From Glutamicibacter arilaitensis Re117 (GTDB lineage Bacteria; Actinomycetota; Actinomycetes; Actinomycetales; Micrococcaceae): a stretch of DNA of 64,000 nt. The stretch covers positions 1,674,001 to 1,738,000 of the forward strand of contig NC_014550.1 in the NCBI RefSeq assembly GCF_000197735.1, given 5' to 3'. The position numbers and the translations under genes are program-made. The notes below the pieces were generated by a model. The model worked only from the letters and a program-made list of their open reading frames with translations. It had not been told where the DNA came from and searched no databases. This document shows, piece after piece, positions 7,479 to 47,983 of this stretch (the first letter of the stretch is position 1; each line of letters opens with the position of its first letter).

Positions 7479-7490
7479 CTGTCTGGTGGG

Positions 7491-7545
7491 GAAATATCCC
7501 AGCGGCGTTGCTAAAGGCTCAACACTGCTGGGATATTTCATTTTT
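7491..7545. terminator. Bidirectional terminator between smc and the MFS gene
   Basis: A perfect 13-bp stem (GAAATATCCCAGC at 7491-7503, its complement at 7527-7539) with a 23-base loop is followed by ATTTTT. It sits between two convergent stop codons and can serve both genes. Confidence 0.85.
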
Positions 7546-7552
7546 CTGCTCG

Positions 7553-31669: not shown

Positions 31670-32001
31670 GCCTCGTATGCGGATAGGGCGCGTTGGACTT
31701 CGAATGCGAAGGGGAATAGCCGCTGCGAGTCCATAATGGGCTGTTGCCGTGGAAGCGAGCAAACAACCAACGGGCAGGAATCATAGCCGGGATATGCCTT
31801 AGTCGAACCGTGTGGAGCCAATCCGCTTACCCATCACCGCGTCCACGGTGCCAAGTAGCAACTCATCGAGCCAGCTGGTCACGCTGTTGTTAAGGCTCTA
31901 AGCAGCCTGGCATGTTAGCGGTGTACTCGACGATGACTGGGGTAATCTCAGCCTATGATTGATTTATCTCTAAATCCAATCAATCAAAGGGGTTGCTTTT
32001 C
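31670..32001. other. Intergenic region with an inverted repeat
   Basis: About 330 bp without a supported gene. TGATTGATT (31956-31964) and AATCAATCA (31978-31986) form a 9-bp inverted repeat with a 13-base spacer. The right arm touches the AAAGGGG ribosome binding site of the next gene, so it could be an operator or affect translation. TATGAT at 31954-31959 is a possible -10 element inside it. Confidence 0.4.
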
Positions 32002-33195
32002 GTGGATTCAACTGAGTTCAATTACCTCAACCTGGAGTTCATCTTCATGGGCGATAAGCCCGAAGTGGCACAGCTGGTACGCACCGCGCTAGCCGACCGC
32101 CGCCTGCTGGGCTTTATCGGCGGAGCTGTTGAGCGTGAGAATTCAACTCAAGTCACCGCCGAAGTGGCCACGGTAAGCGAAGCCCGTGATGCGGTGCTCT
32201 ACCGCATTGATGCCAAGGGCAAGCTGCGCGAAGGGTCGCGCGTGACCAAGCTGGTCCACGAATTGAAGAACTCCACCGGAGCAAGCTACGTGTTGGTGGA
32301 TGGGGATGAGATTGATGGCCCGACTCCGGATGATGAGGTCCTTGGGGACTTCGGCAGCACCAACGAGCTGCTGCACGGTCCCAAGCTCAAGGGCTCAGAG
32401 CTTGTGCTGGCAGCAGGATTCGCGGATAACGAGATCACTGTGTGGGACAGCGCCTCGGGACTGATGGCAATGCTGAAGGAACCTGTCTATGCCCCGAACA
32501 TCTCGCGCTCGAACCGCCCGTTCTTGTCTTTGACTCGAATGGGTAATGTCATTTCGGCAAGCATTGAAGCCAAGGGATCACGCCGCGATATCTTCAGTTC
32601 CTCGCTGGGTATTGTGCTTGATCTGGAGCGCACGCCAATCCTTGAACCAGTTGCCGGTTCGCCGGCAGCATTACGGCTTGAGGAGCTAGAAAGCCTGCTC
32701 TATGGCTACGGTGAAGAGGATACCGAGCTGCTTGAAAAACTGATCTCAGATCCTGCGGCCCGTGCAGAAGCCCAGCAGCTATTGGCGCACTCTGCGGATT
32801 TGAAGGATTTGAAGCGTCTGCTTTCGCTCTTCGGGTTTGACCCGCGCAGCGTGGATTACCTCACCGGGCGCCCGCTGCCCGAAGACCGCCGAGTACTTGC
32901 CACCGGCAACCCGATCAAGACCCTGAGGGCAGCGTTGGCTGAGCAGGAACGTGAAGCCAAGGGAATCGAAAGGTTGCTGTACCGCCACAGTTGGAATCCC
33001 AAGGCGCTCATTGGCTCTGGCATCGCGGTGCTCGCATCCGGTTTGGTGGCGCATCAAGTTCTGGCACGCAGCCAGAAGTTCGAGTGGCTGCCCAAATCAG
33101 CACGCCAAGTCCTGATGGCGGCTTGGTATGCCGATGGCGCGTTCTACCTGGGCAAGGGAATCATTGACGCGCTGAAGGCCAAGCGCAGCAACTGA
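32002..33195 (+). CDS. Hypothetical protein with a C-terminal hydrophobic segment
   Basis: A 397-aa protein of no family I recognise. GTG at 32002 is nine bases after AAAGGGG and is preferred to the TTG at 31993, which directly abuts that site. The first 220 residues look like an alternating strand/helix domain; residues 220-325 are helical and leucine-rich. ALIGSGIAVLASGLVAHQVLA (around 333-353) is a possible membrane segment. An exceptionally strong terminator follows. It is the last gene before the composite transposon. Confidence 0.7.
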   Translation: MDSTEFNYLNLEFIFMGDKPEVAQLVRTALADRRLLGFIGGAVERENSTQVTAEVATVSEARDAVLYRIDAKGKLREGSRVTKLVHELKNSTGASYVLVDGDEIDGPTPDDEVLGDFGSTNELLHGPKLKGSELVLAAGFADNEITVWDSASGLMAMLKEPVYAPNISRSNRPFLSLTRMGNVISASIEAKGSRRDIFSSSLGIVLDLERTPILEPVAGSPAALRLEELESLLYGYGEEDTELLEKLISDPAARAEAQQLLAHSADLKDLKRLLSLFGFDPRSVDYLTGRPLPEDRRVLATGNPIKTLRAALAEQEREAKGIERLLYRHSWNPKALIGSGIAVLASGLVAHQVLARSQKFEWLPKSARQVLMAAWYADGAFYLGKGIIDALKAKRSN

Positions 33196-33264: not shown

Positions 33265-33297
33265 AAGCGTTCAGTCTCTGGAGGTTCCCGCTAGCCC

Positions 33298-34693
33298 CAA
33301 TACCGTTTACTTAGTGCATTCATGTGTTAATCTGCTCCCATGGCACGCAGCGGATGGATGAAACCCGTAGAACCAACACGACTTTCGGACCACGTCTCCT
33401 TAGGCGTACTAGCGAAGGTTTTCCCGCCTTCGCTGGTCAACGAGGTGGTCACCAAAGTCGGCGCCGGCGAGCAGCGCTCACGCCTGCTGCCCGCGTGGAT
33501 GATGGTCTACTACGTGATGGCCCTGGCCTTGCATGCTGCAGCTTCCTACGAGGAGGTCATGCGCAACCTGCTCGGCGGTCTGCAATGGATTTCCCACCGT
33601 ACTAGCGAATGGAGCATGCCTACCAAAGCAGCCATTTTCAAGGCCCGTACCCGTCTGGGCGCACCGGTGATGATCGAGCTGTTCGACCAGGCAGCCAAGC
33701 CCTTCGGGCTTCAAACCCCACGGGGGTTCCTGGCCGGGTTGCGCCTGGTCAGTGTGGACGGGACGACCATGGACCTTGCTGATACGCCCGCCAACGAGCG
33801 GGCCTACGGACGACCGGGAACGAACACCGAATTCAAGAGCGCTTTCCCTCAAGCACGACTCCTGGGACTGGTGGAATGCTCCACGCACGCCATTATCGGC
33901 GCGGTGACCGGGCCTTACACTACCGCGGAAAACGACATGTATCCCGGGCTGCACCACAAGCTGGATTCGAGCATGCTTCTGATGGCTGACCGCGGTTTCT
34001 TCAGCTACCGATCTTTCAAGGACAGTGCCGCAACCGGAGCCCAATTGCTCTGGCGGGTGCGCGGAAACATGGTCCTTCCCGTGCATGAGGAATTCGAAGA
34101 CGGCTCGTACCTTTCTGCCGTCTACGAAGGGACCAAGGAACGCCGGAACAACGTGGATCCCATCCGCGTGCGTGTGGTGGAATACGCGGTCGGTGACGGA
34201 GAGAAGACCAGTGAATTCCGGTTGCTCACCACAATCTTGGATCCCGGTATCGCCTCGGCGCGCGAGCTGGCCGAGGCTTATGCGAAGCGATGGGAGATTG
34301 AGTTGTGCTTCAAGGAAATGAAAACCCATCAGCGCGGGCCTTCGGTGGTGCTGCGGTCGAAAACCCCTGAGGGCGTCCTTCAGGAAATCTATGGGTACCT
34401 TTGCGCTCACTATGCGCTGCGCACGTTGATTGGCGAGGTAGCTGCAGAGTTTGACGAGGATCCGTTGCGGATCTCATTCACCCGTACGTTACGGGCCGCC
34501 CGGCGTTCGATGGCCACGCGGCCCGGTTTTTACCCCTGAAAATCTGCGGACATCATTTGCCGCGTTCTGTTCAGAACTTCTTCACGAGCTATTACCCGAG
34601 CGTCGAGACCGGGTCAATCCACGTGTGGTGAAGCGGGAGATGTCTGGCTGGCTGGTGAAGAAAGTCCCGAAACCCGTTAAGTAAACGGTATTG
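33298..34693 (+). mobile_element. IS4-type insertion sequence, left copy
   Basis: The 1396-bp element has 16-bp terminal inverted repeats: CAATACCGTTTACTTA at 33298-33313 and its complement at 34678-34693. It carries one transposase, whose reading frame shifts near the end. The protein and all shadow frames are the same as in the right copy (44635-46030), so the two copies are identical or nearly so and their duplication is recent. Confidence 0.92.
33340..34539 (+). CDS. IS4 family transposase, left copy (frame shifts near the end)
   Basis: A 399-aa DDE transposase. SVDGTTMDLADT holds the first Asp (about 145), LLMADRGFFSY the second (about 218), and YAKRWEIELCFKEMK the IS4-type Y-R-E-K signature with the catalytic Glu (about 315-329). 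The frame closes with a TGA at 34537-34539, but the next 150 bases in the +1 frame (to 34684) code for a C-terminus ending in KPVK that is plausible for this family. All catalytic residues lie before the shift. Either a fixed frameshift that spares activity or programmed frameshifting is possible. Confidence 0.88.
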   Translation: MARSGWMKPVEPTRLSDHVSLGVLAKVFPPSLVNEVVTKVGAGEQRSRLLPAWMMVYYVMALALHAAASYEEVMRNLLGGLQWISHRTSEWSMPTKAAIFKARTRLGAPVMIELFDQAAKPFGLQTPRGFLAGLRLVSVDGTTMDLADTPANERAYGRPGTNTEFKSAFPQARLLGLVECSTHAIIGAVTGPYTTAENDMYPGLHHKLDSSMLLMADRGFFSYRSFKDSAATGAQLLWRVRGNMVLPVHEEFEDGSYLSAVYEGTKERRNNVDPIRVRVVEYAVGDGEKTSEFRLLTTILDPGIASARELAEAYAKRWEIELCFKEMKTHQRGPSVVLRSKTPEGVLQEIYGYLCAHYALRTLIGEVAAEFDEDPLRISFTRTLRAARRSMATRPGFYP

Positions 34694-35195
34694 CCTTTAG
34701 CTGGCAAAACGTTCAATAGATTAAGGCGGGTGGCGTGATTCATTTTGCTGGTGTGCCAGCTTCGTCACCGTGAGCGTAAGGCAAGTAGTCACCGGAACCG
34801 TTGTCGACGATCGCGGTCAAACCACCCTTGGTGGGCGCGCAACCTTCTATGGGCCGCAGGTTCGGTTGGCAGATGGAGGGGACACAGCGGTTCCATCAAC
34901 TACGGTGTTCGAGTTCAATGCGGATTGAATGAGCAGCCCTGAAAACTACGCTGCAGAACACATATCAGGCAAAGCTCAAAGGCGGGGTCGAATATTGATT
35001 ACTGCGCTGTTGTCGGATCATCACTTCAGATGGCACGGTCCTGGGGATTTGAGTTCTGTCATTCATTTCGCCGGTCGGACTGCCAGAGGACACAGTGATA
35101 TCAGATGATTGTAATCAGTGTCACGCGTGTTTCTTGAATTCATGCTGATGTAAACACCACTACTCAGCTCTGAATGCGAGCCAATCATCTATGAT
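34694..35195. other. Inner flank of the left IS4 copy
   Basis: About 500 bp of probable ancestral cargo sequence between the IS4 copy and the first ISL3 element. The only coding signal is the short fragment at 34725-34928; the rest shows no family-like frame. Confidence 0.4.
34725..34928 (+). pseudogene. Fragment of an unidentified gene
   Basis: An open frame from 34725 to the TGA at 34926-34928. From GTG 34770 it would code 52 aa containing VTGTVVDDRGQTTLGGRA and ending TVFEFNAD. The residue pattern (Thr/Val/Gly strands, D-G turns) looks like the end of a beta-rich protein. No ribosome binding site precedes the GTG. I read it as the 3' remnant of a gene truncated near the IS4 copy; a small intact gene cannot be excluded. 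Confidence 0.35.
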
Positions 35196-36644
35196 GGCTC
35201 TTCAGGATTGAGGGTGTAAACGCCGTCTAAACCCACCGGTCTCCAACAACGACCGGGCGATATAGTGCGCCAGATTCTTGAACCCCAACGCGATACCTCG
35301 CAGATGCTCCAACCTGCCATTCAAAGCCTCGGTAGGACCATTCGAACTACCAATATGATCAAAGTACGCGAGAATGTCCGTCTTCCTCCTGCGCAGGGTG
35401 CCGCCGAGCTTTTTCAGCTCCGGCAACCCTTTCGGTACCTTCGTGCCAACTTCGTTGATCAGTTGCTCCAAGGCCCACCGTCCGACCTCGGGCTTCGGTT
35501 GCCGGTAGGCATCCACCATCTTCTGATACACGCTCCAGACCAATTGAACCGGCTCATACTCCGGCTCCTTGAACAGGTCTTCAAGCTTGGTCTTCTGCTT
35601 TTCCGTAGCCAAGGATAGTCCCGTGGTCAGCGTTCGCCTGCACTTGTAAAGCGGGTCATCCTTGCGTCCTCGACGCCCATGTTGCTCACGTTGAATCCGT
35701 TGCCGGGTCTGGTCCAGCGCCTCGGAACCTAGTTTGACTACATGGAATGGATCCAACACCTCCACCGCGTGGGGTAGCTCCTCGACGGCAGCTGTTTTGA
35801 AGCCGGTGAAACCGTCCATTGCGACGACTTCAATGCCCTGTTTCCATTGTTCTTCTTGATCAGCCAGCCAGGTTTTGAATACAGCTTTGGATCTTCCAGG
35901 GACCATGTCGATCAGTCGTGCGGTACCGGTGCCGTCACGCACCGCGGTGAGGTCCACAATCACGGTGACGTATTTGTCGCCGGTTCGGGTATGCCGCCAA
36001 ACATGTTCATCGACTCCCAGCACTTTGACCCCGTCGAAGCGGGTTGGATCATCAATCAGTAAGCGTTGACCTTCAGCCAGCACAGCCTCATTGGCGGTAT
36101 TCCAGGTGACGCCGAGGCCTTCGGCAATTCGGGAGACTGACAAGTGGTGGCAGACCAGTCCAACCAGCGCCCAGCGTAGCCCGGTCCTGCTGATTTTCTG
36201 GCGTGGCGCTACTGCTTGGGACAGCTCTTCACGCCAGACTCGTTGGCAATTGGCGCAACGGTAGCGGCGGTGTTTGATGACTAGGACAGTGGGACGCCAG
36301 CCCAATGGTTCGTGGGCGAGGCGGCGGGTGACGGTATCGCGTGGAATGCCTGCTGCTCCGCAGGTTTGGCACCAAGGGATCGGGTTGGTGACGTGGCAGA
36401 GGATTTCGGCTTTCGCTGCGCTCAGGTGTTGCCCGATTGCGGTCAGTCCCAAGCCGTCAAGATTGGTGAAAGTGGTGAGGTCTGGTGCGGTGAAGGTAGG
36501 ATTGAGCAACGTCGAGGTCTTTCGAAAATGGCTAGTGTAGTAACTTCCATTCTTCTGGAAGACCTCGACTTTTTCGTGCTCGGCGACATGCCCGGGAATC
36601 GGGGTGTTGGTTTCAGGTGGTTACACTCTTATTCCTGAAGAGCC
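35196..36644 (-). mobile_element. ISL3 family element (1449 bp) upstream of the cargo glycosyltransferase
   Basis: Terminal repeats start GGCTCTTCAGGA at both ends (35196-35219 and the complement at 36621-36644, 24 bp with three mismatches). The 8-bp target duplication TCTATGAT is exact at 35188-35195 and 36645-36652. Both features are hallmarks of ISL3. The element carries one intact transposase on the minus strand. The right end lies 70 bp upstream of the glycosyltransferase start, so the insertion is in that gene's promoter region. Confidence 0.94.
35202..36509 (-). CDS. ISL3 family transposase
   Basis: A 435-aa transposase with an N-terminal zinc-finger-like region (CHVTNPIPWCQTCG and CANCQRVW), a helix-turn-helix and the ISL3 DDE domain: VLGVDEHVWRH (first Asp), VVAMDGFTGFK (second Asp) and, near the end, GSSNGPTEALNGRLEHL with the last acidic residue. 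Intact length. The stop codon lies inside the terminal inverted repeat. A close relative of the same length is encoded at 38722-40029, with scattered differences. Confidence 0.94.
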   Translation of the reverse strand: MLNPTFTAPDLTTFTNLDGLGLTAIGQHLSAAKAEILCHVTNPIPWCQTCGAAGIPRDTVTRRLAHEPLGWRPTVLVIKHRRYRCANCQRVWREELSQAVAPRQKISRTGLRWALVGLVCHHLSVSRIAEGLGVTWNTANEAVLAEGQRLLIDDPTRFDGVKVLGVDEHVWRHTRTGDKYVTVIVDLTAVRDGTGTARLIDMVPGRSKAVFKTWLADQEEQWKQGIEVVAMDGFTGFKTAAVEELPHAVEVLDPFHVVKLGSEALDQTRQRIQREQHGRRGRKDDPLYKCRRTLTTGLSLATEKQKTKLEDLFKEPEYEPVQLVWSVYQKMVDAYRQPKPEVGRWALEQLINEVGTKVPKGLPELKKLGGTLRRRKTDILAYFDHIGSSNGPTEALNGRLEHLRGIALGFKNLAHYIARSLLETGGFRRRLHPQS

Positions 36645-36713
36645 TCTATGATTTGAGAAGAATAGGAATCTATTTCTGTATTAGTTCTTCTGCAGCAGAG
36701 GTTGGTTGGCTGA

Positions 36714-38102
36714 ATGTCACGACGTTCGTTCATGATCACTTGGATAATTGACGAGAAATTCGGGGGATTGACGACTGCGTGCTTGCAACGTGCTAGTAGC
36801 TTCGCAAAGAAAGATGGCAAGTCGAATGTTGTAACATTCGCTTATACGCAACACCTCAATTCTACGGTTGAGCGATTGCGCGGAATCGGGCTAATTGCTT
36901 CTGGTGTGAAGGTTCATAACTTGTATTCCGACTATGCCTCCAGAGTCTCGCACCCGCCGGTGAAGAAGCTGGCCGCAAAGGCGGAAGGCATGAAATGGTC
37001 TGTGGAGCCAGTAGAGTCCCAGGTTAATGATGCCGGGATCTTCAAGCATGTGTATGCGCACACGGACGATTCCGCTTCCTCGAGGATCATCTATTCTCGA
37101 CCGGATGGCTCCAAGTTCATGTCTGATGCGAAATTCGTGGTTGGTGGTGAATCAAAACGAGAAATCGCGATATTCAACGGGGCAGGTGAGGTCCTCAAGA
37201 AGTTCTCATCCGCCTCATCGCTGTACCGACATTGGCTGACTGAAATTGTCGGATATGAAGAGTCGATCGCTGTATTCGACAGCAGCTTTGTAGCCTCAAT
37301 GATGGGACCATGGCGTGCGCCGAAGACAACCAAAATGTTTGTCTTTCATTCGTCACATGTTGTGGCCGGTGCTGAACCGGAAACGGGTCCAGTGGTACCA
37401 AAGCATCAAAAAATTGCAGCAAACGCCGATAATTGGGATGTTTTCGTATTCCTCACTCGGCAACAGGCTGATGATTTCAACGCGCGCTTTGGCCACGAAT
37501 CTAAGTCTGTAGTTATCCCGAACATCATCAAGAGTTCCTCGCTCAAGAAATTCTCTCGTCGTAATGACCCTAGGCAAATCATTTCAGTGGGAAGCCTCGA
37601 CAGCAGAAAACAAGTAGATCATGCTATTCGCGCAGTCCATGAACTAAAAGAATTGGGGGTCGACTGCAAGCTCACAATCGTTGGAAAGGGCCAAAAGCAG
37701 CAAGAGTTGCAATCCTTGGCAAAGGAACTCGGATTATCTGACCGTATTGAGTTTGCAGGGCACGTAGATGACGTACCGCGGCGACTTGCAAATAGTGGGA
37801 TCTTGTTATTCACAAGCAAGCTGGAGGGCCAGGGGTTGGTTCTCTTGGAGGCGCAATTCCATGGCTGTGTGCCTATTTCGTATGACGTTCGATATGGCCC
37901 AGCGTCTGTGATCGATAGCGGTGTTAACGGGCTGCTCGTTGGACCCAACGATATTCACGCATTGTCGTCGCACGTTGCGTCACTGATTGATAATCCGAAG
38001 GAATACAAGCGGCTTTCCAAGCAGGCCCACTCATCGGCCAAGCGTTACGCTCGGCAAGACTTGACCAATCTTTGGATCAAGGCGGCAAAAAACGCAAGGT
38101 AG
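36714..38102 (+). CDS. Family 4 glycosyltransferase carried by the transposon
   Basis: A 462-aa GT-B glycosyltransferase. The start is ATG at 36714 (ATG at 36732 is possible). The N-terminal half begins WIIDEKFGGLTTACLQRAS. The C-terminal half has the usual sugar-nucleotide domain: IISVGSLDSRKQVDHAI, IVGKGQKQQEL and the acidic motif EGQGLVLLEAQ with its E-x7-E. It resembles TarM/GtfA-type transferases that glucosylate teichoic acid or proteins. It is clearly related to the chromosomal protein at 54312-56120 but lacks that protein's C-terminal 120 residues. The gene is AT-richer than the average neighbour, which suggests foreign origin. It is the only intact non-transposition gene of the island. 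Confidence 0.85.
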   Translation: MSRRSFMITWIIDEKFGGLTTACLQRASSFAKKDGKSNVVTFAYTQHLNSTVERLRGIGLIASGVKVHNLYSDYASRVSHPPVKKLAAKAEGMKWSVEPVESQVNDAGIFKHVYAHTDDSASSRIIYSRPDGSKFMSDAKFVVGGESKREIAIFNGAGEVLKKFSSASSLYRHWLTEIVGYEESIAVFDSSFVASMMGPWRAPKTTKMFVFHSSHVVAGAEPETGPVVPKHQKIAANADNWDVFVFLTRQQADDFNARFGHESKSVVIPNIIKSSSLKKFSRRNDPRQIISVGSLDSRKQVDHAIRAVHELKELGVDCKLTIVGKGQKQQELQSLAKELGLSDRIEFAGHVDDVPRRLANSGILLFTSKLEGQGLVLLEAQFHGCVPISYDVRYGPASVIDSGVNGLLVGPNDIHALSSHVASLIDNPKEYKRLSKQAHSSAKRYARQDLTNLWIKAAKNAR

Positions 38103-38578
38103 CCGACAGTTCGTGAGCTTAACAGCGACGGATAGCTAATTTCGCTGAGAATACCTCTCGCGCCACTTTACCTTTGGCCATTGACTGCGGGACGAATCTC
38201 ACTGGAGATCGGTGGATTGAGTACCGCACGCGTTGTAGCCGAAGAAACGCATTCCTTCAGTTATGACAGCCCTTTTCCCTACCGAAATATCACCGCGGGA
38301 ACGAAGGCGGGAAGGATTCCGTCGCGTTGCCGCGAAGAGAAGAACAGAAGCTCAAATCAAGGCCGACCTGCGCCTCTCTGAAGCAAGGTGTTTATCTAAC
38401 CACCTAAGTTGAGCACCTAAATAAATCTGGGAAAGTGTTGTCAAATTGTAACAACACTAATCAGAGCGCAATTACCTTCCCGTTGGTGCGCAGGTTGATG
38501 TTTCCTTGGGAATATACTTAAGTTTGAAATTCATTGAAGCCTAGAAGGTTTCACTATCAACGGGAATCAAATGGCACT
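38103..38578. other. Transposon cargo without a clear gene
   Basis: About 475 bp between the glycosyltransferase and the left end of the IS1380-type element. A 49-codon frame at 38263-38412 lacks a ribosome binding site and family resemblance. The region is AT-rich, like the glycosyltransferase gene. Confidence 0.4.
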
Positions 38579-38586
38579 GTTTAACC

Positions 38587-40035
38587 GGCTCTTCAGAATT
38601 GAGAGTGTAGCCACCTAAACCCAACACCCCGGATCCCGGGCATGTCGTCAATGCATTAAAAAGTCGAGGCCTTCCAGAAGAATGGAAGTTACCACACTAA
38701 CCATTTCTAGAGACCTCGACTGTGCACCATTCTATCTATACCCCCGCAAATCTCACGACTTTCACCAACCTTGACGGACTGGGACTCACCGCCATCGGGC
38801 AGCGCCTCACGCCGAAGAAAGCTGAGATCCTCTGCCAAGTGACCAACCCTGACCCATGGTGCCAAACGTGCGGAACGCCCGGAAATCCACGCGATACCGT
38901 CACCCGGCGCCTGGCCCACGAACCGTTCGGATGGCGGCCCACCGTCCTGGTGATCAAGCACCGCCGCTACCGCTGCAACCACTGCCAACGAGTCTGGCGT
39001 GAAGACCTCAGCCAAGCGGTAGCGCCACGACAGAAAATCAGCCGGACCGGGCTACGCTGGGCTTTGGCCGGGCTAGTCACCCAGCACCTGTCAGTCTCAC
39101 GGATTGCCGAAGGGCTCGGTGTCACCTGGAATACCGCCAACGAAGCAGTGCTGGCCGAAGGCCAGCGCCTGCTGATAGATGACCCAACCCGGTTCAACGG
39201 AGTCAAAGTGTTGGGAGTTGATGAGCACGTGTGGCGGCATACCAAAAGTGGAGACAAGTACGTGACGGTCATTGTTGACCTCACCCCGGTGAAGGCTGGC
39301 ACTGGCACCGCACGATTGCTCGACATGATTCCCGGACGTTCCAAGGCCGTGTTCAAGACCTGGCTTGCTGAACGCGGTGAAGCATGGAAAAACAATGTTG
39401 AGGTGGTCGCGATGGACGGGTTCACCGGCTTCAAAAGCGCTGCTGCTGAGGAACTGCCCCAAGCCGTAGAAGTCTTGGACCCTTTTCATGTGGTCAAGCT
39501 CGGCTCCGAGGCGTTGGACCAGGCCAGACAACGAGTTCAGCGTGAACAATATGGGCGGCGTGGCCGGAAAGATGATCCGCTGTATAAGTGCCGGCGTACG
39601 CTGACTACAGGTTTATCGCTGGCCACAGAGAAACAGAAACAGCGCGTTGAAGACCTGTTCAACGTTGCGAAGCACGAGCCTGTGCAATTGGTCTGGAGCG
39701 TTTACCAGAGGATGGTTGATGCCTACCGGCAGAAGAAGCCCGAGATCGGGAAGTGGGCCATGGAACAACTGATCAACGAGATCGGTACCAAAGTGCCGAA
39801 GGGTTTACCGGAGTTGAAGAAACTCGGTGGTACGCTGCGCAGGCGGAAACCGGATATCCTCGCGTATTTTGATCACATTGGCAGTTCCAATGGGCCTACT
39901 GAAGCACTCAATGGGCGGTTGGAGCACCTGCGGGGTATCGCTTTGGGGTTCACGAATTTGACGCACTATATCGCACGGTCATTGTTGGAAACCGGTGGCT
40001 TTAGATCGCGTTTACACCCTGAATCCTGAAGAGCC
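38587..40035 (+). mobile_element. ISL3 family element inserted in the IS1380 terminal repeat
   Basis: A 1449-bp element with ends GGCTCTTCAGAATTGAGAGT (38587 onward) and the related complement at 40012-40035. The 8-bp target duplication GTTTAACC is exact at 38579-38586 and 40036-40043. The duplicated bases are the outermost bases of the IS1380 left repeat. Same length as the element at 35196 but with scattered differences, so it is a diverged sister copy. Confidence 0.94.
38722..40029 (+). CDS. ISL3 family transposase
   Basis: A 435-aa intact transposase, very similar to the one at 35202-36509: VLGVDEHVWRH, VVAMDGFTGFK and GSSNGPTEALNGRLEHL are conserved, as are the N-terminal cysteines (CQVTNPDPWCQTCG, CNHCQRVW). 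Differences are scattered through the protein, so the copies diverged before they arrived here. Confidence 0.94.
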   Translation: MHHSIYTPANLTTFTNLDGLGLTAIGQRLTPKKAEILCQVTNPDPWCQTCGTPGNPRDTVTRRLAHEPFGWRPTVLVIKHRRYRCNHCQRVWREDLSQAVAPRQKISRTGLRWALAGLVTQHLSVSRIAEGLGVTWNTANEAVLAEGQRLLIDDPTRFNGVKVLGVDEHVWRHTKSGDKYVTVIVDLTPVKAGTGTARLLDMIPGRSKAVFKTWLAERGEAWKNNVEVVAMDGFTGFKSAAAEELPQAVEVLDPFHVVKLGSEALDQARQRVQREQYGRRGRKDDPLYKCRRTLTTGLSLATEKQKQRVEDLFNVAKHEPVQLVWSVYQRMVDAYRQKKPEIGKWAMEQLINEIGTKVPKGLPELKKLGGTLRRRKPDILAYFDHIGSSNGPTEALNGRLEHLRGIALGFTNLTHYIARSLLETGGFRSRLHPES

Positions 40036-41465
40036 GTTTAACCCGGGTATTTCATGAAGGCCGGTAGTCATTAACTGACTTAAAAGATGAAAAGGTGACC
40101 TGAACTGGGAAAATGGGAGTGTCTAATCTTCCAAAATACCCGTTCAAAGGATCACCTTTTCAGTGAACCATTCTACCCACGTTTTCCCTGCTCTCTCGAC
40201 CCAACTCACCGGCCAGTCCCTGGTCTCTCATGCAGGGTTGTCGGTGCTGACCAGTTTCCTGAATGCCTTGGACTTCCGCAGCCTCTGCGAGGACCGGTTC
40301 AGCCAGTTCGTGCCAGCCACCGCTACCCACCGTCCAGGCAAGATCCTCGGAGCACTGGCTCTATCGTTGGCGGCCGGCGGTGAACAAGCCACAGATATTG
40401 ACCAGCTACGCACCGCACCAGAACTCTTCGGCTCCGTAGCGTCGGATGCCACGGTCAGCCGATTCATGGGCCGGATCAAAGAACAGCCAGAAGCTTTCTC
40501 CTACGGGTTCGCCACCATGACCCGGCGCCTGCGCTCCAAAGTCTGGAATGCGGCCGGGCCGCGGAATCCCGCCCGGCTGGCTACGGCAGCCAATCCGCTG
40601 ATTATCGACATAGATGCGTCGCTAGTGCATGTCCATTCCGAGAAAGAATCCAGCGCTGGGACGTATAAAGGCGGGTACGGTTTTTCACCGATGATCGCCA
40701 TGGCCGACTACGGCAAAGCCCACGGCACCGGCGAAGTCCTCGCCGTGCAATTGCGCCCGGGAAACCGGGGCGCGAACTCCGCCACCTCGCATATCGAGGT
40801 GCTCGGCCAAGCGCTGGCTCAGTTGCCTGATGATTTCTATGACGAGCACGGGAACCTTCGTGGTGAGAAGATCCTGGCCCGTACCGACAGTGCTGGGTCG
40901 TCCAGGGATTTTTTGCACCACCTGCATTCTCTGGGGCTCCAATTCTCCACGTCGTATTCGCTGCCGGTTCTCAAGGAGCGGTTCATCCGGTGGATCGATC
41001 AGAAGAAGTACTGGGAACCAGCCCTGGACGCTAACGGAGATCAGCGTGATGATGCATGGGTGATTGATGCAACGAACGTCTTGGAGTTGAGGCAATACCC
41101 GCCTGGAACTCGGATTTACCGGCTCTTCGAGTTTAAGCGTGGTGCAGGATGTTCAGCACGGTCGGAGGCCCGCCGTGTATAACAATATCCGAACACGGTA
41201 ATGCGCATGATTCCGATAACCCCGCCCTATCCGCTTCAAGTTCTTCGCCGTCAGATTCGCCGCCTCACTCCGAGCATTCGTCAACCGCGTACGAATGAAC
41301 ACCAGCAACTCGCGCCTCCACGCAGTGAGCGTCCGGAACAACGACTTCGCTTCCACCATTTTCGTTGCCTTCACCGATTTCTCCAGCACCGCCCACCTCG
41401 ATTGAAACTCATGGATATCCCGCGTTTTCAGCAGCTCCCGCACGTGTTCCTTAATCCCATAAATC

Positions 41466-42881
41466 GGCTCTTCAAGTTTTAGCGTGGTGAGCCCGAAAAA
41501 TAAGTAAGGCCCGCAGTCCTCTGCGAAAATGGATGTTGTCTAGACAAACCATCAGCAAGGAACTACGAGCCGTGTTTAAGGATACCGGTGGAAACGACGC
41601 TGCGTCGATTCTTCTCAACCTCACTGACTACCGCGTCATCGACGCAACCCAAGAACCAGCCGGACGACAAGTCCTTATCGAGCCCAAAGCCACAGAGGCA
41701 GCCTGTCCAACTTGTGGGGTGATCACCACCCGCATCCACGCCAGACCAGTGCACCGGGTCAAAGACCTCCCAACCGGTGGCAACGACATTAAGGTCCTGG
41801 TGCGCAAACGCCGGATGGCCTGCCAAGAGACCGCCTGCGAACGCCGCTCGTTCGTGCAAACCACCGAACAGCTACCGTTGAGGGCCCGGATCACCACCAG
41901 GCTCTCTCAAAAGCTCGTGGACGAGATGAGCTGCGAACTGCGAGCCGTGTCCAGGGTCGCTTCTGCGTACCAAGTTTCCTGGCCAACCGTGATGGCACGG
42001 CTGAACTTTGAAGGTGAGCTCGCCGGTGACATTGACCGGATGTTCATCGGCAGGCTCGGTATTGATGAGCACCGTTTTCGTAAGGTCCGCTACGCCCGAG
42101 GTAGCAGCGGGAAAGTAGTCAGGATTGAGCCGTGGTCCATAGTCTTCACTGATCTGGATACTGGGAAGATCCTCGATATCGTGGACGGACGGCGAGGTGC
42201 TGCGGTGAAGAAGTGGTTGAAGTCCCGGCCACGGTACTGGCGTCAACGAGTGCAGTACGTGGCCATTGATATGTCTGCTGAGTTCCGAAAAGCGGTGCGG
42301 GAGAACCTGCCCAAGGCAAAGATCAGCGTGGACCATTTTCACGTCATCGCGCGCGCGAATCTCATGATCACCCAGGTGCGCCGGCGCCGTTCCCATGAAG
42401 TCCATGAACGCCGAGGCAGAGTGGCTGATCCGGCCTACAAGTATCGGAAGCTATTGACCTGCAATTTGGAGAACTTGTCGATCAAGCAAGTTGAACGGCT
42501 GAAACTGATCCTTGAAGCAGATCCTGAGCTGGGCGTGATTTATGGGATTAAGGAACACGTGCGGGAGCTGTTGAAAACCAGGGATATCCATGATTTTCAA
42601 TCGAGGTGGGCGGTGCTGGAGAAATCGGTGAAGGCAACGAAAATGGTGGAAGCGAAGTCGTTGTTCCGGACGCTGACTGCGTGGAGGCGCGAGTTGCTGG
42701 TGTTCATTCGTACGCGGTTGACGAATGCTCGGAGCGAGGCGGCGAACCTGACGGCGAAGAACTTGAAACGGATCGGTCGGGGTTATCGGAATCATGGTCA
42801 TTACCGGGTCAGGATATTGTTATACACGGCGGGCCTCCGGCCGTGCTGAGCATCCTGCACCACGCTTAAAATCGAAGAGCC
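41466..42881 (+). mobile_element. ISL3-type element B (1416 bp), innermost insertion
   Basis: A complete sister of element A in opposite orientation. The exact 8-bp duplication CATAAATC lies at 41458-41465 and 42882-42889, inside element A's transposase gene. Ends: GGCTCTTCAAGTTTTAGCGT (41466 onward) and the related complement ending 42881. It is the most recent insertion of the stack. Confidence 0.94.
41533..42849 (+). CDS. ISL3 family transposase of element B
   Basis: A 438-aa intact transposase starting MLSRQTISKELRAVFKDTGG. The N-terminal zinc-finger cysteines (ACPTCG and CQETACERRSF), the DDE-domain motifs LGIDEHRFRKVRY and VAIDMSAEFRKAV, ISVDHFHVIARAN and the C-terminal NARSEAANLTAKNLKRIGRG identify ISL3. 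It belongs to a different ISL3 subgroup from the 435-aa transposases in this island. It could supply transposase for both copies. Confidence 0.94.
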   Translation: MLSRQTISKELRAVFKDTGGNDAASILLNLTDYRVIDATQEPAGRQVLIEPKATEAACPTCGVITTRIHARPVHRVKDLPTGGNDIKVLVRKRRMACQETACERRSFVQTTEQLPLRARITTRLSQKLVDEMSCELRAVSRVASAYQVSWPTVMARLNFEGELAGDIDRMFIGRLGIDEHRFRKVRYARGSSGKVVRIEPWSIVFTDLDTGKILDIVDGRRGAAVKKWLKSRPRYWRQRVQYVAIDMSAEFRKAVRENLPKAKISVDHFHVIARANLMITQVRRRRSHEVHERRGRVADPAYKYRKLLTCNLENLSIKQVERLKLILEADPELGVIYGIKEHVRELLKTRDIHDFQSRWAVLEKSVKATKMVEAKSLFRTLTAWRRELLVFIRTRLTNARSEAANLTAKNLKRIGRGYRNHGHYRVRILLYTAGLRPC

Positions 42882-44634
42882 CATAAATCACGCCCAGCTC
42901 AGGATCTGATTCAAGGATCAGTTTCAGCCGTTCAACTTGCTTGATCGACAAGTTCTCCAAATTGCAGGTCAATAGCTTCCGATACTTGTAGGCCGGATCA
43001 GCGGCCCTTCCTCGGCGCTGGAGCACCTCGTGGGAGCGACGCCGGCGCACCTGGGTGATCATGAGATTCGCGCGCGCGATGACGTGAAAATGGTCCACGC
43101 TGATCTTTGCCTTGGGCAGGTTCTCCCGCACCGCTTTGCGGAACTCAGCAGACATGTCAATGGCCACGTACTGTACTCGTTGACGCCAGTACCGTGGCCG
43201 GGACTTCAACCACTTCTTCACCGCAGCACCTCGCCGTCCGTACACGATATCGAGGATCTTCCCAGTATCCAGATCAGTGAAGACTATGGACCACGGCTCA
43301 ATCCTGACTACTTTCCCGCTGCTGCCTCGGGCGTAGCGGACCTTACGAAAACGGTGCTCATCAATACCGAGCCTGCCGATGAACATCCGGTCAATGTCAC
43401 CGGTGAGCTCACCTTCAATGTTCAGCCGTGCCATCACGGTTGGCCAAGAAACTTGGTACGCAGAAGCGACCCTGGACACGGCTCGCAGTTCGCAGCTCAT
43501 CTCGTCCACGAGCTTTTGAGAGAGCCTGGTGGTGATCCGGGCCCTCAACGGTAGCTGTTCGGTGGTTTGCACGAACGAGCGGCGTTCGCACGCGGTCTCT
43601 TGGCAGGCCATCCGGCGTTTGCGCACCAGGACCTTAATGTCGTTGCCACCGGTTGGGAGGTCTTTGACCCGGTGCACTGGTCTGGAGTGGATGCGGGTGG
43701 TGATCACCCCACAAGTTGGACAGGCTGCCTCTGTGGCTTTGGGCTCGATAAGGACTTGTCGTCCGGCTGGTTCTTGGGTTGCGTCGATGACGCGGTAGTC
43801 GTTGAGGTTGAGAAGAATCGACGCAGCGTCGTTTCCACCGGTATCCTTAAACACGGCTCGTAGTTCCTTGCTGATGGTTTGTCTAGACAACATCCATTTT
43901 CGCAGAGGACTGCGGGCCTTACTTATTTTTCGGGCTCACCACGCTAAAACTTGAAGAGCCGATTTACCTGCGTGCTGAGCCCTTGCATCCGGGGGCGAAA
44001 GCGAACTTGTTCGACACGGACGGGAACCGAGTCACCGCGTTCTTGACCAATGCGCCGCGGTTCAACGTCGCGTTCCTCGATGCCCGGCATCGGGCGCGGG
44101 GCAGGTGCGAAAACAGGATCAAGACGTTGAAGAATGCGGGGTTGGGCAAGCTGCCGTATTGGTCTTTCGCAGCGAACCAGGCGTGGGCGGACTTGGCGAT
44201 GTTCGCGGTGAATTTGGTGTCTTGGCTTCAACTTGCTGCGCTACCTGGCGGGCATGAGGCCGGCTGCTGGGATTTGAAGCGGTGGCGGTACCGGCTATTT
44301 TCAATGGCCGGGAAAGTCGTCACCGGCGGCCGGCAACGCCGGCTGCTGATCGCCGAGAAGGCGCCTGAAGCGCAGCTGTTATGCCAGTTGCAGAAGGGTA
44401 TCGGTGAGTCATTCCAGCGGTGGCGGCACGGCGAGCTGGCCGCCTGAACTGGTGATTGTTCTGTTGTTTATTTGGTTTCGAAAGGCCAATTCAGTCCAGA
44501 TAAGTGGAGCCTGGCACCCAGCGCTGGTGTTTCGGCGCTCTTTGGCGTGGGCGGAATCAGTAACGGCCGCCGGGAATCCTGGGTATCGGATTTCGGTGGC
44601 CGTCAGAGACCTCATGAAAAATCTGGGTTAAACG

Positions 44635-46030
44635 CAATACCGTTTACTTAGTGCATTCATGTGTTAATCTGCTCCCATGGCACGCAGCGGATGGATGAAA
44701 CCCGTAGAACCAACACGACTTTCGGACCACGTCTCCTTAGGCGTACTAGCGAAGGTTTTCCCGCCTTCGCTGGTCAACGAGGTGGTCACCAAAGTCGGCG
44801 CCGGCGAGCAGCGCTCACGCCTGCTGCCCGCGTGGATGATGGTCTACTACGTGATGGCCCTGGCCTTGCATGCTGCAGCTTCCTACGAGGAGGTCATGCG
44901 CAACCTGCTCGGCGGTCTGCAATGGATTTCCCACCGTACTAGCGAATGGAGCATGCCTACCAAAGCAGCCATTTTCAAGGCCCGTACCCGTCTGGGCGCA
45001 CCGGTGATGATCGAGCTGTTCGACCAGGCAGCCAAGCCCTTCGGGCTTCAAACCCCACGGGGGTTCCTGGCCGGGTTGCGCCTGGTCAGTGTGGACGGGA
45101 CGACCATGGACCTTGCTGATACGCCCGCCAACGAGCGGGCCTACGGACGACCGGGAACGAACACCGAATTCAAGAGCGCTTTCCCTCAAGCACGACTCCT
45201 GGGACTGGTGGAATGCTCCACGCACGCCATTATCGGCGCGGTGACCGGGCCTTACACTACCGCGGAAAACGACATGTATCCCGGGCTGCACCACAAGCTG
45301 GATTCGAGCATGCTTCTGATGGCTGACCGCGGTTTCTTCAGCTACCGATCTTTCAAGGACAGTGCCGCAACCGGAGCCCAATTGCTCTGGCGGGTGCGCG
45401 GAAACATGGTCCTTCCCGTGCATGAGGAATTCGAAGACGGCTCGTACCTTTCTGCCGTCTACGAAGGGACCAAGGAACGCCGGAACAACGTGGATCCCAT
45501 CCGCGTGCGTGTGGTGGAATACGCGGTCGGTGACGGAGAGAAGACCAGTGAATTCCGGTTGCTCACCACAATCTTGGATCCCGGTATCGCCTCGGCGCGC
45601 GAGCTGGCCGAGGCTTATGCGAAGCGATGGGAGATTGAGTTGTGCTTCAAGGAAATGAAAACCCATCAGCGCGGGCCTTCGGTGGTGCTGCGGTCGAAAA
45701 CCCCTGAGGGCGTCCTTCAGGAAATCTATGGGTACCTTTGCGCTCACTATGCGCTGCGCACGTTGATTGGCGAGGTAGCTGCAGAGTTTGACGAGGATCC
45801 GTTGCGGATCTCATTCACCCGTACGTTACGGGCCGCCCGGCGTTCGATGGCCACGCGGCCCGGTTTTTACCCCTGAAAATCTGCGGACATCATTTGCCGC
45901 GTTCTGTTCAGAACTTCTTCACGAGCTATTACCCGAGCGTCGAGACCGGGTCAATCCACGTGTGGTGAAGCGGGAGATGTCTGGCTGGCTGGTGAAGAAA
46001 GTCCCGAAACCCGTTAAGTAAACGGTATTG
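44635..46030 (+). mobile_element. IS4-type insertion sequence, right copy
   Basis: 1396 bp, same orientation as the left copy, with the same 16-bp terminal repeats (CAATACCGTTTACTTA at 44635-44650 and the complement at 46015-46030). It forms the right arm of the composite transposon. It abuts the IS1380-type element on the left, and the acyl-CoA synthetase stop codon lies just past its right end. Confidence 0.92.
44677..45876 (+). CDS. IS4 family transposase, right copy (frame shifts near the end)
   Basis: A 399-aa protein identical to the left-copy transposase, with the same DDE motifs and the same early TGA at 45874-45876; the +1 frame continues to 46021 with the rest of the C-terminus. 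That both copies share the shift means it predates their duplication. Confidence 0.88.
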   Translation: MARSGWMKPVEPTRLSDHVSLGVLAKVFPPSLVNEVVTKVGAGEQRSRLLPAWMMVYYVMALALHAAASYEEVMRNLLGGLQWISHRTSEWSMPTKAAIFKARTRLGAPVMIELFDQAAKPFGLQTPRGFLAGLRLVSVDGTTMDLADTPANERAYGRPGTNTEFKSAFPQARLLGLVECSTHAIIGAVTGPYTTAENDMYPGLHHKLDSSMLLMADRGFFSYRSFKDSAATGAQLLWRVRGNMVLPVHEEFEDGSYLSAVYEGTKERRNNVDPIRVRVVEYAVGDGEKTSEFRLLTTILDPGIASARELAEAYAKRWEIELCFKEMKTHQRGPSVVLRSKTPEGVLQEIYGYLCAHYALRTLIGEVAAEFDEDPLRISFTRTLRAARRSMATRPGFYP

Positions 46031-46033
46031 CCG

Positions 46034-47746
46034 CTAGCCCAGACTCTTCAACTCCGGAAAATCCGTGTCCCGGTATTCGCCGCTGGGCTTGGCGCCTTTG
46101 GCCTGCTGCTCTTCCTCGGCCAGGCGAAGTTCCACACGGCGGATCTTGCCGGAAATGGTCTTCGGGAGCTGGGAAAATTCGAGACGGCGGATCCGTTTGT
46201 AAGGGGCCAGCTGCTCACGGCAGAACCCGAGGATGTCCTTGGCAACCGCCGCTGAAGGCTCGACATTCGCGGCCAGCACCACAAATGCCTTGGGTACCGA
46301 GAGCTTGAGCGGATCCGGTGATGGAACCACCGCTACTTCGGCAACCGCTGGATGCTCCAGCACGACCGATTCCAGCTCGAAGGGGCTGAGCTTGTAATCG
46401 CTGGATTTGAAGACGTCATCGGCTCGGCCCACATAGGTCAAGACGCCTTCTTCATCGCGCTCGGCAATATCGCCAGTGTGGTAGACCCCGCCCCTCAGGG
46501 CTTCCTCGGTCTTCTGCGGATCGGCAAAGTAGCCTTTCATCAAGCCGGCAGGCTTGGGATCCAATCGCAAGCAGATCTCGCCGACTTCAGCCAGTTCTCC
46601 GGTGGTCGGATTGCGCAGCTCCACCACATAGCCTGGCATCGGGCGGCCCATTGCACCGACTTTCACCTCGGTGCCCGGGGAGTTGGCGATCTGCACCGTA
46701 GTCTCGGTCTGGCCGTAGCCATCGCGAATCACCTGGCCCCACGCCGTGCGCACCTGGTCAATGACCTCGGCATTCAACGGCTCTCCGGCCGAGACCAGCT
46801 TGCGCGGGGGAGTCTTCAGTGCGCTCAGGTCTGCCTGGATCAGGTAGCGCCAAACCGTAGGCGGTGCGCAGAAGCTGGTGACGTTCTCGGTGTCCATCTG
46901 ATTCATCAGGGCCAGCGGATCAAAGCGATCATAGTTGTAAACGAAAACGGTGGCTTCAGCGATCCACGGACCGAAGAAATTGGACCATGCGTGCTTGCCC
47001 CAGCCGGGGGAAGCGACGTTCAAATGAACATCTCCGGGCTCCAAGCCGATCCAGAACATGGTTGCCAGGTGGCCGATGGTGTACGAGGTGTGGGTGTGCT
47101 GGACCAGTTTTGCCAACGACGTGGTGCCCGAGGTGAAGTAGAGCAGCATGTTTTCATCGGCCAGCGTTGGGCTCTGAAGGCTGAATTCAGCTGGCGCATC
47201 GAAGGACTTGGCGTAGTCCAAGGTGTGCTCGGTTGCCTCGCCGCGTACCTGGACAATCCGGTAGTCTCCTGGCACGGTGTCGAATTTGGCGACGTGTTCA
47301 TGGCTGGTGATCACCCAGTTCGCGTTGCCGCGCTCAATGCGGTCGGCAAGGTCTGCGCTGACCAGCTGGGTGGTGGAAGGGATGATCACCGCTGCCAGCT
47401 TCATGCCCGCGAGCATCAATTCCCACAGGGCCACCTCGTTGCCGAGCATCAGGATGATCGTGTCCCCGCGTTGCAGTCCTTCGTCGGAAAGCCAGCGGGC
47501 CACTTGGGTAGAACGGTGCGAGAGCTGCGCCCAGCTGTAGCGAGCTGTACTGCCATCTGGTTCGGTGAGGATCAATGCTGGCTGATCAGCCCGCTTTGGG
47601 TCCTTGGCTACGGCATCAAACCAGTCATAGGCGAAGTTGAAATCGGTGAATTCCGGCCAAGTGAACTCTGCCCGTGCCCGGTCGTAGTCATCGCGTGCTG
47701 CCAGCAGCAGATCGCGTGCGGCCCGGAACTTATCGGTATTGCTCAT
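46034..47746 (-). CDS. AMP-forming acyl-CoA synthetase
   Basis: A 570-aa adenylate-forming ligase that activates a carboxylic acid via an acyl-AMP to the CoA thioester. LYFTSGTTSLAKLVQHTH is the P-loop, DGYGQTETT the A5 motif, YHTGDIAERDE and GRADDVFKSSDYKLSPFELES the hinge region, and PKTISGKIRRVEL contains the catalytic lysine. It is closest to medium-chain (ACSM-like) enzymes. ATG at 47746 follows AAGGA; the frame to 47878 is too long. The stop codon TAG lies within the 10-bp target duplication of the composite transposon, so the protein is intact. It is a tandem paralogue of the next gene, about two thirds identical by eye. Confidence 0.93.
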   Translation of the reverse strand: MSNTDKFRAARDLLLAARDDYDRARAEFTWPEFTDFNFAYDWFDAVAKDPKRADQPALILTEPDGSTARYSWAQLSHRSTQVARWLSDEGLQRGDTIILMLGNEVALWELMLAGMKLAAVIIPSTTQLVSADLADRIERGNANWVITSHEHVAKFDTVPGDYRIVQVRGEATEHTLDYAKSFDAPAEFSLQSPTLADENMLLYFTSGTTSLAKLVQHTHTSYTIGHLATMFWIGLEPGDVHLNVASPGWGKHAWSNFFGPWIAEATVFVYNYDRFDPLALMNQMDTENVTSFCAPPTVWRYLIQADLSALKTPPRKLVSAGEPLNAEVIDQVRTAWGQVIRDGYGQTETTVQIANSPGTEVKVGAMGRPMPGYVVELRNPTTGELAEVGEICLRLDPKPAGLMKGYFADPQKTEEALRGGVYHTGDIAERDEEGVLTYVGRADDVFKSSDYKLSPFELESVVLEHPAVAEVAVVPSPDPLKLSVPKAFVVLAANVEPSAAVAKDILGFCREQLAPYKRIRRLEFSQLPKTISGKIRRVELRLAEEEQQAKGAKPSGEYRDTDFPELKSLG

Positions 47747-47806
47747 TGGAGTCCTTTGCAAGCGGGGCATCGGTGCCCAATAGAATTCGTCGGTCGTCAG
47801 TATCCA

Positions 47807-47835
47807 AATATACTTCAGTGACCAATTTAGACGAA
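47807..47835 (-). promoter_or_regulatory. Promoter of the first acyl-CoA synthetase gene
   Basis: On the minus strand: TTCGTC (47830-47835), a 17-base spacer, TATATT (47807-47812), about 60 bases before the ATG. The paralogue has the same -10 sequence and spacing. Confidence 0.55.
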
Positions 47836-47983
47836 TTGTTGCGACATCATGCGCACCATTGTGGATTAATGTCTCCAATATTGTCGTGAATCAGATACAG
47901 CGCCGGTCAGAATGCTGAAAATAACCGCTTAGGGCCAGTTCCCGGTATCGCCACCTGCACAGCGGCGATACCAGGATGGCGGC

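Follow-up and report, generated by a model that had tools for sequence, protein, structure and literature searches.

How did a 12.7-kb block bounded by two identical ISs come to lie at the very end of an acyl-CoA synthetase gene in the cheese bacterium Glutamicibacter arilaitensis Re117, and did it arrive as one piece? The window analysed is the whole 64-kb stretch of chromosome around this block.

Outer duplication and bounding elements

The features at the two outer edges are as follows.

33288–33297: left copy of the 10-bp target duplication, CCGCTAGCCC, fitting the NNNYTARNNN of relatives
33298–34693, plus strand: left IS4-family copy, 1396 bp (identity to right copy; PF13006 and PF01609; NF033592)
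44635–46030, plus strand: right IS4-family copy, 1396 bp (identity to left copy)
46031–46040: right copy of CCGCTAGCCC, holding the synthetase stop TAG (46034–46036, minus strand)
46034–47878, minus strand: host acyl-CoA synthetase gene, unharmed (PF00501 and PF13193)

A reading made from the sequence alone had described an exact 10-bp duplication around a pair of apparently identical, directly oriented 1396-bp IS4 copies with differing inner flanks, and each element of that description is borne out. The window contains CCGCTAGCCC at exactly two places, against 0.20 expected in dinucleotide shuffles (two occurrences were reached by 1/100 shuffles), and both occurrences directly abut the outer ends of the IS4-family copies, so that the duplication lies on the outside of the pair only. 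The two copies are identical over 1396/1396 bp. Their inner flanks are unlike, CCTTTAGCTG following the left copy and ...TTAAACG preceding the right one. A search of the whole 3.92-Mb Re117 genome found these two copies and no third.

Members of the IS4 family have terminal inverted repeats and duplicate a target of about 9–13 bp. The bounding elements belong to this family: their termini carry 16 identical bases as a perfect inverted repeat (CAATACCGTTTACTTA), the duplication is 10 bp long, and the transposase matches PF13006 (E=4.8e-31), PF01609 (E=1.1e-14) and the IS4-family profile NF033592 (252 bits, cut-off 115).

Related IS4s present as single copies leave a similar duplication, likewise 10 bp long, with the core YTAR. 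A motif-free search detected a duplication in 11 of the 18 relative loci having an inverted-repeat pair, and YTAR was present in 11/11. The remaining 7/18 gave no duplication in that search, although one of them, L063, was positive when 10 bp with a central YTAR were required; this second search returned a duplication in 14/55 relative loci. A scan of genome contigs for named relatives of the IS4 yielded just seven distant loci, from one MAG, at 25–26% identity, and in a plasmid search the best match extended over 31% of the IS, at 71%.

The YTAR preference raises the odds that similar flanks arose by coincidence, through two IS4 insertions independent of each other or through a rearrangement. 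However, once YTAR is given, the two flanks must still agree at six other bases and in two binary choices, for which simple arithmetic under equal base use gives a chance of about 1 in 16,000. Neither Re117 copy has its own inside duplication, in contrast with genome G246, where each member of a direct IS4 pair has one (GGCCTAAACC at L051 and CGTCTAACCC at L068). As the donor sequence described below also accounts for the inner flanks, coincidence is extremely improbable.

The target site in the host gene

The CTAG core of CCGCTAGCCC includes the stop codon of the synthetase gene, and one duplicate therefore restores the stop and spares the gene. Correspondingly, the TAG at 46034–46036 is intact inside the right-hand CCGCTAGCCC, as had been proposed. 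An IS with a YTAR target core can thus insert at a stop codon and restore it. Whether stop codons are a preferred target was considered by comparing the YTAR core with the stop of a long open frame in 14 relatives, with no control; L101 alone looks so, a few are equivocal and most do not, and stop-codon targeting is not claimed.

The predicted empty site was found uninterrupted in 11/11 informative congeners, defined as those whose fetched locus includes both flanks: here the gene to the left and an inverted repeat, the latter judged by eye, run straight into the synthetase 3′ end. Another six congeners, whose fetched locus matched the synthetase but not the left flank, are uninformative and were left out of this count. 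Relatives carrying the IS4 copies separately would have spoken against a composite; none of the 17 congeners searched has a full-length copy, and a lone IS4 occupies the site in 0/11 informative congeners.

The cargo and its source

Without nested ISs, the DNA between the IS4 copies comprises 2437 bp, namely one intact glycosyltransferase gene and its flanks.

34694–35195, plus strand: cargo part one, opening with half-site CCTTTAGCTG; 98.0% to L112 8550–9051
36653–38584, plus strand: cargo part two, to the TTAA target of IS1380; 98.5% to L112 9044–10994
36714–38102, plus strand: cargo gene, an intact GT4-type glycosyltransferase, TarM/SdgA-like, 462 aa
44632–44634, plus strand: final three cargo bases, the ACG of half-site TGTTTAAACG; L112 10985–10987

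The cargo is 98% identical to the Glutamicibacter locus L112, from a genome that is probably G. mishrai; core stretches (smc-like, MFS-ftsY-like and synthetase) are 73–79% identical to the same genome. At L112 both IS4 target sites, corresponding to the inner flanks, are uninterrupted. The inner flanks of the Re117 pair are thus unlike because they derive from two original target sites, as read in this donor-type locus. It is usually a drug-resistance cargo that reveals a composite transposon; here a surface-glycan-type gene would have been carried between bacteria of one genus by such an element.

Nested insertions and the size of the unit

The interior holds five later IS insertions, each with its own duplication.

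35196–36644, minus strand: ISL3-A, 1449 bp; duplication TCTATGAT at 35188–35195 and 36645–36652
38587–40035, plus strand: ISL3-A', 1449 bp; duplication GTTTAACC at 38579–38586 and 40036–40043
40042–44627, plus strand: IS1380-family element, 1738 bp without inserts; TTAA at 38581–38584 (before ISL3-A') and 44628–44631
41121–43960, minus strand: ISL3-B2, 1416 bp without its insert, in IS1380; duplication GATTTACC (41113 and 43961)
41466–42881, plus strand: ISL3-B1, 1416 bp, in ISL3-B2; duplication CATAAATC (41458 and 42882)

Positions 33298–46030 are fully accounted for: 2792 (two IS4) + 2437 (cargo) + 1457 + 1742 + 1424 + 1424 + 1457 = 12,733 bp, with TCTATGAT at 35188–35195 doubling as the end of cargo part one. 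To the left of the right IS4, an inverted match of 36 bases (I7) resembled a synthetase 3′ end, but a shared origin was rejected, as the stretch is the right end of IS1380; the resemblance outside the YTAR core is put down to chance.

Elsewhere in the genome, ISL3-A has 18 and ISL3-A' four full-length copies at 100% (rounded) identity. Because of these resident copies, the two elements (2 x 1457 bp with duplications) probably entered after arrival. The best match elsewhere in the genome is 93% for the left part of IS1380 and at most 87% for its right part; for ISL3-B, B1 and B2 themselves aside, it is 94%. None of the congeners searched is closer over the full stretch (IS1380 right part 85%, ISL3-B 82%). 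IS1380 and ISL3-B may have come in with the unit or joined it later. The unit that moved was probably 5.2–9.8 kb rather than 12.7 kb. The composite nature of the 12.7-kb unit first proposed is therefore supported, by the empty site and the donor half-sites, but its size at the time of movement was probably overstated.

The A. arilaitensis Re117 genome paper describes ISs nested in one another like a 'russian doll' and an IS-rich stretch at 1.47–1.72 Mb (PMC2991359). The present unit belongs to the same genome and falls within that stretch; 'composite' and 'IS4' have no match in the main text of the paper, whose IS tables are supplementary and stand outside that text.

How the unit arose

One IS is present twice around non-IS cargo, the duplication lies outside the pair only, and the site is empty in relatives. 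Most likely, then, the unit is a composite transposon, IS4-cargo-IS4, that entered at CCGCTAGCCC. It is proposed that, in a donor near G. mishrai, one IS4 inserted at CCTTTAGCTG, upstream of the cell-surface-type glycosyltransferase gene, and a second, identical IS4 at TGTTTAAACG, within the beginning of the gene that follows. The transposase would then have used the two outermost ends, and insertion of the whole unit at the NNNYTARNNN site CCGCTAGCCC of the A. arilaitensis chromosome would have duplicated those 10 bp. ISL3-A, IS1380, ISL3-B2 (in IS1380), ISL3-B1 (in B2) and ISL3-A' (at the IS1380 edge) would have landed inside, in an order demonstrated only where one IS sits inside another. 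The outer duplication, the empty site, the donor half-sites and the account of every base are demonstrated; a single transposition step and passage between species would explain them. The sequence preserves the target site, the two donor half-sites and each of the later insertions in readable form. With one genome per species, neither a donor holding the two IS4s, nor a carrier plasmid, nor an empty site in G. arilaitensis was seen. A further point against this reading is that the transposase ORF has to change frame to acquire its tail, and its present activity is thus only putative.

The sequence-only reading had offered recombination between IS4 insertions as the other route. A lone IS4 could have entered at CCGCTAGCCC first; a circle of one IS4 and the cargo, formed by looping out from a donor composite, would later have integrated by homologous recombination between IS4 copies. 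This route would leave exactly the same final sequence, and identical IS4 copies are compatible with it, but it requires two separate arrivals of an IS otherwise absent: the genome has no third copy, and the congener searches gave neither a full copy (17 genomes) nor a lone IS4 (0/11), although absence from other species still allows one within G. arilaitensis. It is accordingly rather unlikely, and arrival as a composite is favoured.

Tn10 and Tn5 are composite transposons bounded by IS10 and IS50 of the IS4 family, with a 9-bp duplication. As in these elements, a pair of IS4-family copies would mobilise the intervening DNA, with a short target duplicated outside. The ISs of the present unit are direct, whereas those of Tn10 and Tn5 are inverted; its cargo is a glycosyltransferase rather than drug resistance, its duplication is 10 bp rather than 9 bp, and its transposase frame is split.

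The transposase frame break

The frame break of the left IS4 copy comprises the following features.

33340–34539, plus strand: transposase 0-frame ORF, 399 aa, ending CCC TGA
34492–34525, plus strand: GC-rich inverted repeat CGGGCCGC...GCGGCCCG, one base before T5
34527–34539, plus strand: proposed recoding site TTTTTACCCCTGA
34537–34684, plus strand: +1-frame C-terminal transposase tail, ENLRTSF...KKVPKPVK, stop TAA at 34682–34684; conserved in relatives

The 0-frame ORF stops 145 bases short of the end of the +1 tail, and the Re117 copy reads TTTTTACCCC, that is T5AC4, without an uninterrupted T5C5-like run. Both features would suit a frameshifted pseudogene in an immobile relic moved with help in trans. 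Nevertheless, the same kind of break is kept in 43/50 alignable loci, down to ~40% identity, with the 0 frame closing at this T/C-rich site or close to it and the +1 frame open beyond. Tail differences are concentrated at third positions of the +1 frame (745/571/1376 by codon position over 66 pairs), and the related single-frame proteins P0108, P0110 and P0117 bear a homologous tail. A pseudogene is accordingly quite improbable; from these sequence comparisons the 399-aa ORF is probably not dead, and the transposase would arise through +1 recoding at TTTTTACCCCTGA.

It is likely that this IS4 clade, across the class Actinomycetes, obtains full transposase only by programmed +1 recoding at a conserved TTTTTCCCCC-TGA module, often with a hairpin in front, via either stem-loop-dependent transcriptional slippage or +1 ribosomal frameshifting at CCC_UGA, which would be the first in an IS. 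A pure T+C+ run is present in 39/43 +1-class loci, and the Re117 copy is among the four interrupted. The Re117 hairpin has an MFE of -24.9, against a mean of -13.7 for 200 synonymous recodings, 1/200 being as stable; among relatives, just 13/43 distinct upstream stretches pass 5%, including that of the in-frame L086. Hairpin position was dropped as evidence, because a stem falls at that place almost as frequently in synonymous recodings (43 seen against 37 expected).

Transcriptional slippage that depends on a stem-loop has so far been proven for an IS630, that of Roseiflexus, at T5C5 (PMC5009743, PMC6211511). In Listeria phages, ribosomes are known to shift +1 at CCC_UGA, and the 2016 review by Atkins et al. 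states that no +1 ribosomal frameshift was then known in an IS (PMC5009743). Such recoding was not found for IS4 in the literature searched. Most relatives of this IS4 resemble the Roseiflexus IS630 in having a T-run and then a C-run with the remainder of the protein in the +1 frame. A GC-rich stem-loop is predicted directly 5′ of the run in the Re117 copy and in many relatives, a possible further likeness. The IS4 differs in its transposase family, in the T5AC4 of the Re117 copy, where slippage is a prediction from sequence, and in the additional presence of CCC_UGA at the site. If confirmed, this recoding would add IS4 to the families controlling transposase dose by frame change, and would allow transcriptional slippage and +1 ribosomal frameshifting to be compared readily. 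The T5AC4 of Re117, which keeps CCC_UGA yet breaks the run, would make a natural test between the two.

Target duplication and empty site

The unit is bounded by two copies of one IS4-family element:
33298-34693, left IS4-family copy, 1396 bp
44635-46030, right IS4-family copy, 1396 bp, in direct orientation with the left and identical to it throughout

The sequence CCGCTAGCCC adjoins the outer end of both copies and has no further occurrence in the window. The inner flanks differ, with CCTTTAGCTG coming next after the left copy and TTAAACG directly before the right. The sequence-only reading, which had proposed an exact 10-bp duplication outside the pair only, two identical 1396-bp copies in direct orientation and a spared host gene, was borne out on each point; the stop codon of the host acyl-CoA synthetase gene (46034-47878, minus strand) lies inside the right-hand duplicate and is undamaged. 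No third IS4 copy was found in the genome. Relatives carrying separate IS4 copies, the case named as refuting a single unit, were sought among 17 congeners, and a full-length copy is present in none of them. Partial DNA matches of 36–141 bp occur in three (G001, G008 and G009), and G008 also holds a 36% protein match with an internal stop.

The synthetase has a match in all 17 congeners. Eleven (L009–L019) are informative, having the left neighbour gene within the same fetched locus; in the other six, uninformative on the site, a left-flank match is absent within the fetched stretch. The predicted empty site is uninterrupted in all 11: the end of the left neighbour leads through an inverted repeat, spotted by eye, to the synthetase 3′ end without an insertion, with 86–178 bp between the flank matches. 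At one empty site (L014), CCGCTAGCC holds 9 of the 10 target bases; the remaining congeners diverge further, and the synthetase stop is neither TAG nor TAA in some (e.g. L015 and L017).

The left neighbour gene (31993-33195) encodes 400 aa, has no family match in Pfam or NCBIfam, and is conserved as DNA in at least 11 congeners. The window occupies positions 1,674,001-1,738,000 of a 3,859,257-bp contig in a genome totalling 3,918,192 bp. Excerpts of the genome paper describe Arthrobacter (now Glutamicibacter) arilaitensis Re117 as a cheese-surface bacterium and report an IS-rich stretch at 1.47–1.72 Mb (PMC2991359), within which the unit falls.

Target duplications were also sought beside related IS4 elements (loci L045–L074), as 8–12 bp repeats flanking inverted-repeat pairs, with no motif required. 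A duplication was found in 11 of 18 loci with such a pair and none in the other seven; all 11 contain YTAR, the core of the target NNNYTARNNN. When 10 bp with a central YTAR was imposed, 14 of 55 loci were positive. One genome (G246) has two direct IS4 copies (L051 and L068), their ORFs 859 bases apart, with one 10-bp duplication each. This is the pattern of independent insertions, from which the window pair differs; the G246 pair is potentially a composite in the making.

Cargo and donor

The 2437-bp cargo carries one gene:
36714-38102, GT4-type glycosyltransferase, 462 aa

At least its C-terminal half is similar to enzymes of known structure, namely TarM, Gtf1 and their relatives, and the best protein match, at 98% identity, bears the name of Glutamicibacter mishrai. 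The cargo is contiguous in locus L112 of another Glutamicibacter genome (G006), where window 34694-35195 corresponds to L112 8550-9051 (98.0% identity) and 36645-38592 to L112 9044-10994 (98.5%). Since the synthetase and the smc-like and MFS-ftsY-like stretches (names assigned by eye) are only 73–79% identical between the two genomes, the cargo similarity marks a recent transfer. In L112 the gene sits between the smc-like and MFS/ftsY-like genes; the corresponding window junction (7466-7576) has no such insert. Both CCTTTAGCTG (L112 8550-8559) and TGTTTAAACG (L112 10978-10987, where the next open frame starts) are uninterrupted and fit NNNYTARNNN, and are read as the two IS4 targets of the donor.

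L112 6938-12467, between the same two genes in G006, is a block of about 0.48–0.52 GC holding an apparent TPR protein and two glycosyltransferases (one by search, the others by eye); it is absent from the matching window junction. Open frames of 606 and 650 codons hold two further relatives of the cargo glycosyltransferase (35–36% identity), at window 54732-56096, some 8.7 kb beyond the right end of the unit, and at genome C3:1493184-1494566.

Inner insertions and size of the moved unit

Every inner IS has its own target duplication.

STRATIGRAPHY Insertion sequences between the two IS4 copies (lengths include the duplication)
ISL3-A: duplication TCTATGAT, 1457 bp
IS1380: duplication TTAA, 1742 bp
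ISL3-B2, within IS1380: duplication GATTTACC, 1424 bp
ISL3-B1, within ISL3-B2: duplication CATAAATC, 1424 bp
ISL3-A', across the left edge of IS1380: duplication GTTTAACC, 1457 bp

Two IS4 copies (2792), cargo (2437) and insertions (1457 + 1742 + 1424 + 1424 + 1457) sum to 12,733 bp, the entire span. ISL3-A has 18 full-length copies elsewhere in the genome (two on a second contig) and ISL3-A' has four, all at 100% (rounded) identity, so both probably derived from resident copies after the unit arrived; alternatively, they may have come in with it and then spread through the genome. The best resident identity is at most 93% for IS1380 and 94% for ISL3-B, elements that may have travelled in with the unit. 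The moving unit therefore measured at least 5.2 kb, and 9.8 kb if it already contained IS1380 and the two B elements. Of the proposed 12.7-kb composite, the enclosure of the whole span by the outer duplication stands; what moved was probably smaller, at 5.2–9.8 kb.

ISL3-A (35196-36644) and ISL3-A' (38587-40035), about 80% alike and in inverted orientation, flank the glycosyltransferase and represent two resident lineages.

The unit is of an ordinary kind and is documented with unusual completeness, by the duplication at its outer ends, the empty site, the half-sites in the donor and an account of every base. The remaining doubt is recombination with an IS4 previously present at the site, instead of one-step transposition.

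A conserved +1 frame in the transposase

A probable +1 recoding event, conserved among actinomycete IS4 elements, emerged as a side result and is more novel than the composite itself. The transposase ORF ends at residue 399 (TTT TAC CCC TGA), beyond which the +1 frame stays open, encoding a basic tail that reaches 34684. Both copies carry the feature:
34492-34684, hairpin-TTTTTACCCC-TGA site and conserved +1-frame tail, left copy
45829-46021, the same, right copy

A frame scan covered 56 loci including the window's own copy, six being left out as their match did not reach residue 375. Of the 50 alignable loci, 43, with the own copy among them, have an in-frame CCC after a T-run and a +1 frame that stays open longer; CCC is followed directly by a stop in 25, by U in 13 and by C in five. 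The site is missing in three distant loci (L061, L063 and L065), L086 and L101 stay in frame there, and L091 and L074 have no in-frame site ahead of a stop. A tail motif search of 51 loci matched the +1 frame in 27, another frame in four and nothing in 20, because the search expression was narrow; a three-frame print shows related tails in most of these 20. Among 66 pairs of 12 tails (13 supplied, L048 being dropped by the search expression), differences by +1-frame codon position number 745, 571 and 1376, highest at the third. Single-frame homologues of 466–470 aa possess the tail (P0108, P0110 and P0117). Among the best 120 protein matches, 66 end exactly at residue 399, 45 end 1–20 residues beyond and nine otherwise; as a counter-example, P0016 (88% identical) terminates GFSR rather than in proline.

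Transcriptional slippage could operate at this site by analogy with the Roseiflexus IS630, for which review excerpts describe slippage at T5C5, needing a stem-loop directly upstream, and transcripts minus one C (PMC5009743). As in that element, the T/C run is uninterrupted in 39 of 43 IS4 loci; in contrast, an A interrupts it in the own copy (T5AC4). The own-copy hairpin was equalled in stability by only 1 of 200 synonymous recodings. The same comparison took in 43 distinct upstream stretches, 40 of them belonging to the +1 class and the others being L086, L091 and L101; the 5% level is passed by only 13, and the mean z is −1.16. This low count, the presence of in-frame L086 among the 13 and the A break count against slippage. 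The A break is itself probably derived, because close relatives P0004–P0009 end GFSP, with P0001–P0003 and P0010 ending GFYP (protein sequences only).

Alternatively, a proline tRNA could slip +1 at CCC_UGA, as is known for Listeria phages; as of the same excerpts, no IS with +1 ribosomal frameshifting had been identified (PMC5009743). Titles and abstract openings of the papers listed from openly licensed PMC literature yielded no recoding in this IS4 group. Excerpts of the GeneTack survey report +1 clusters of DDE_Tnp_1 transposases, small ones included, and propose transcriptional realignment at A-rich sites for them (PMC3711429).
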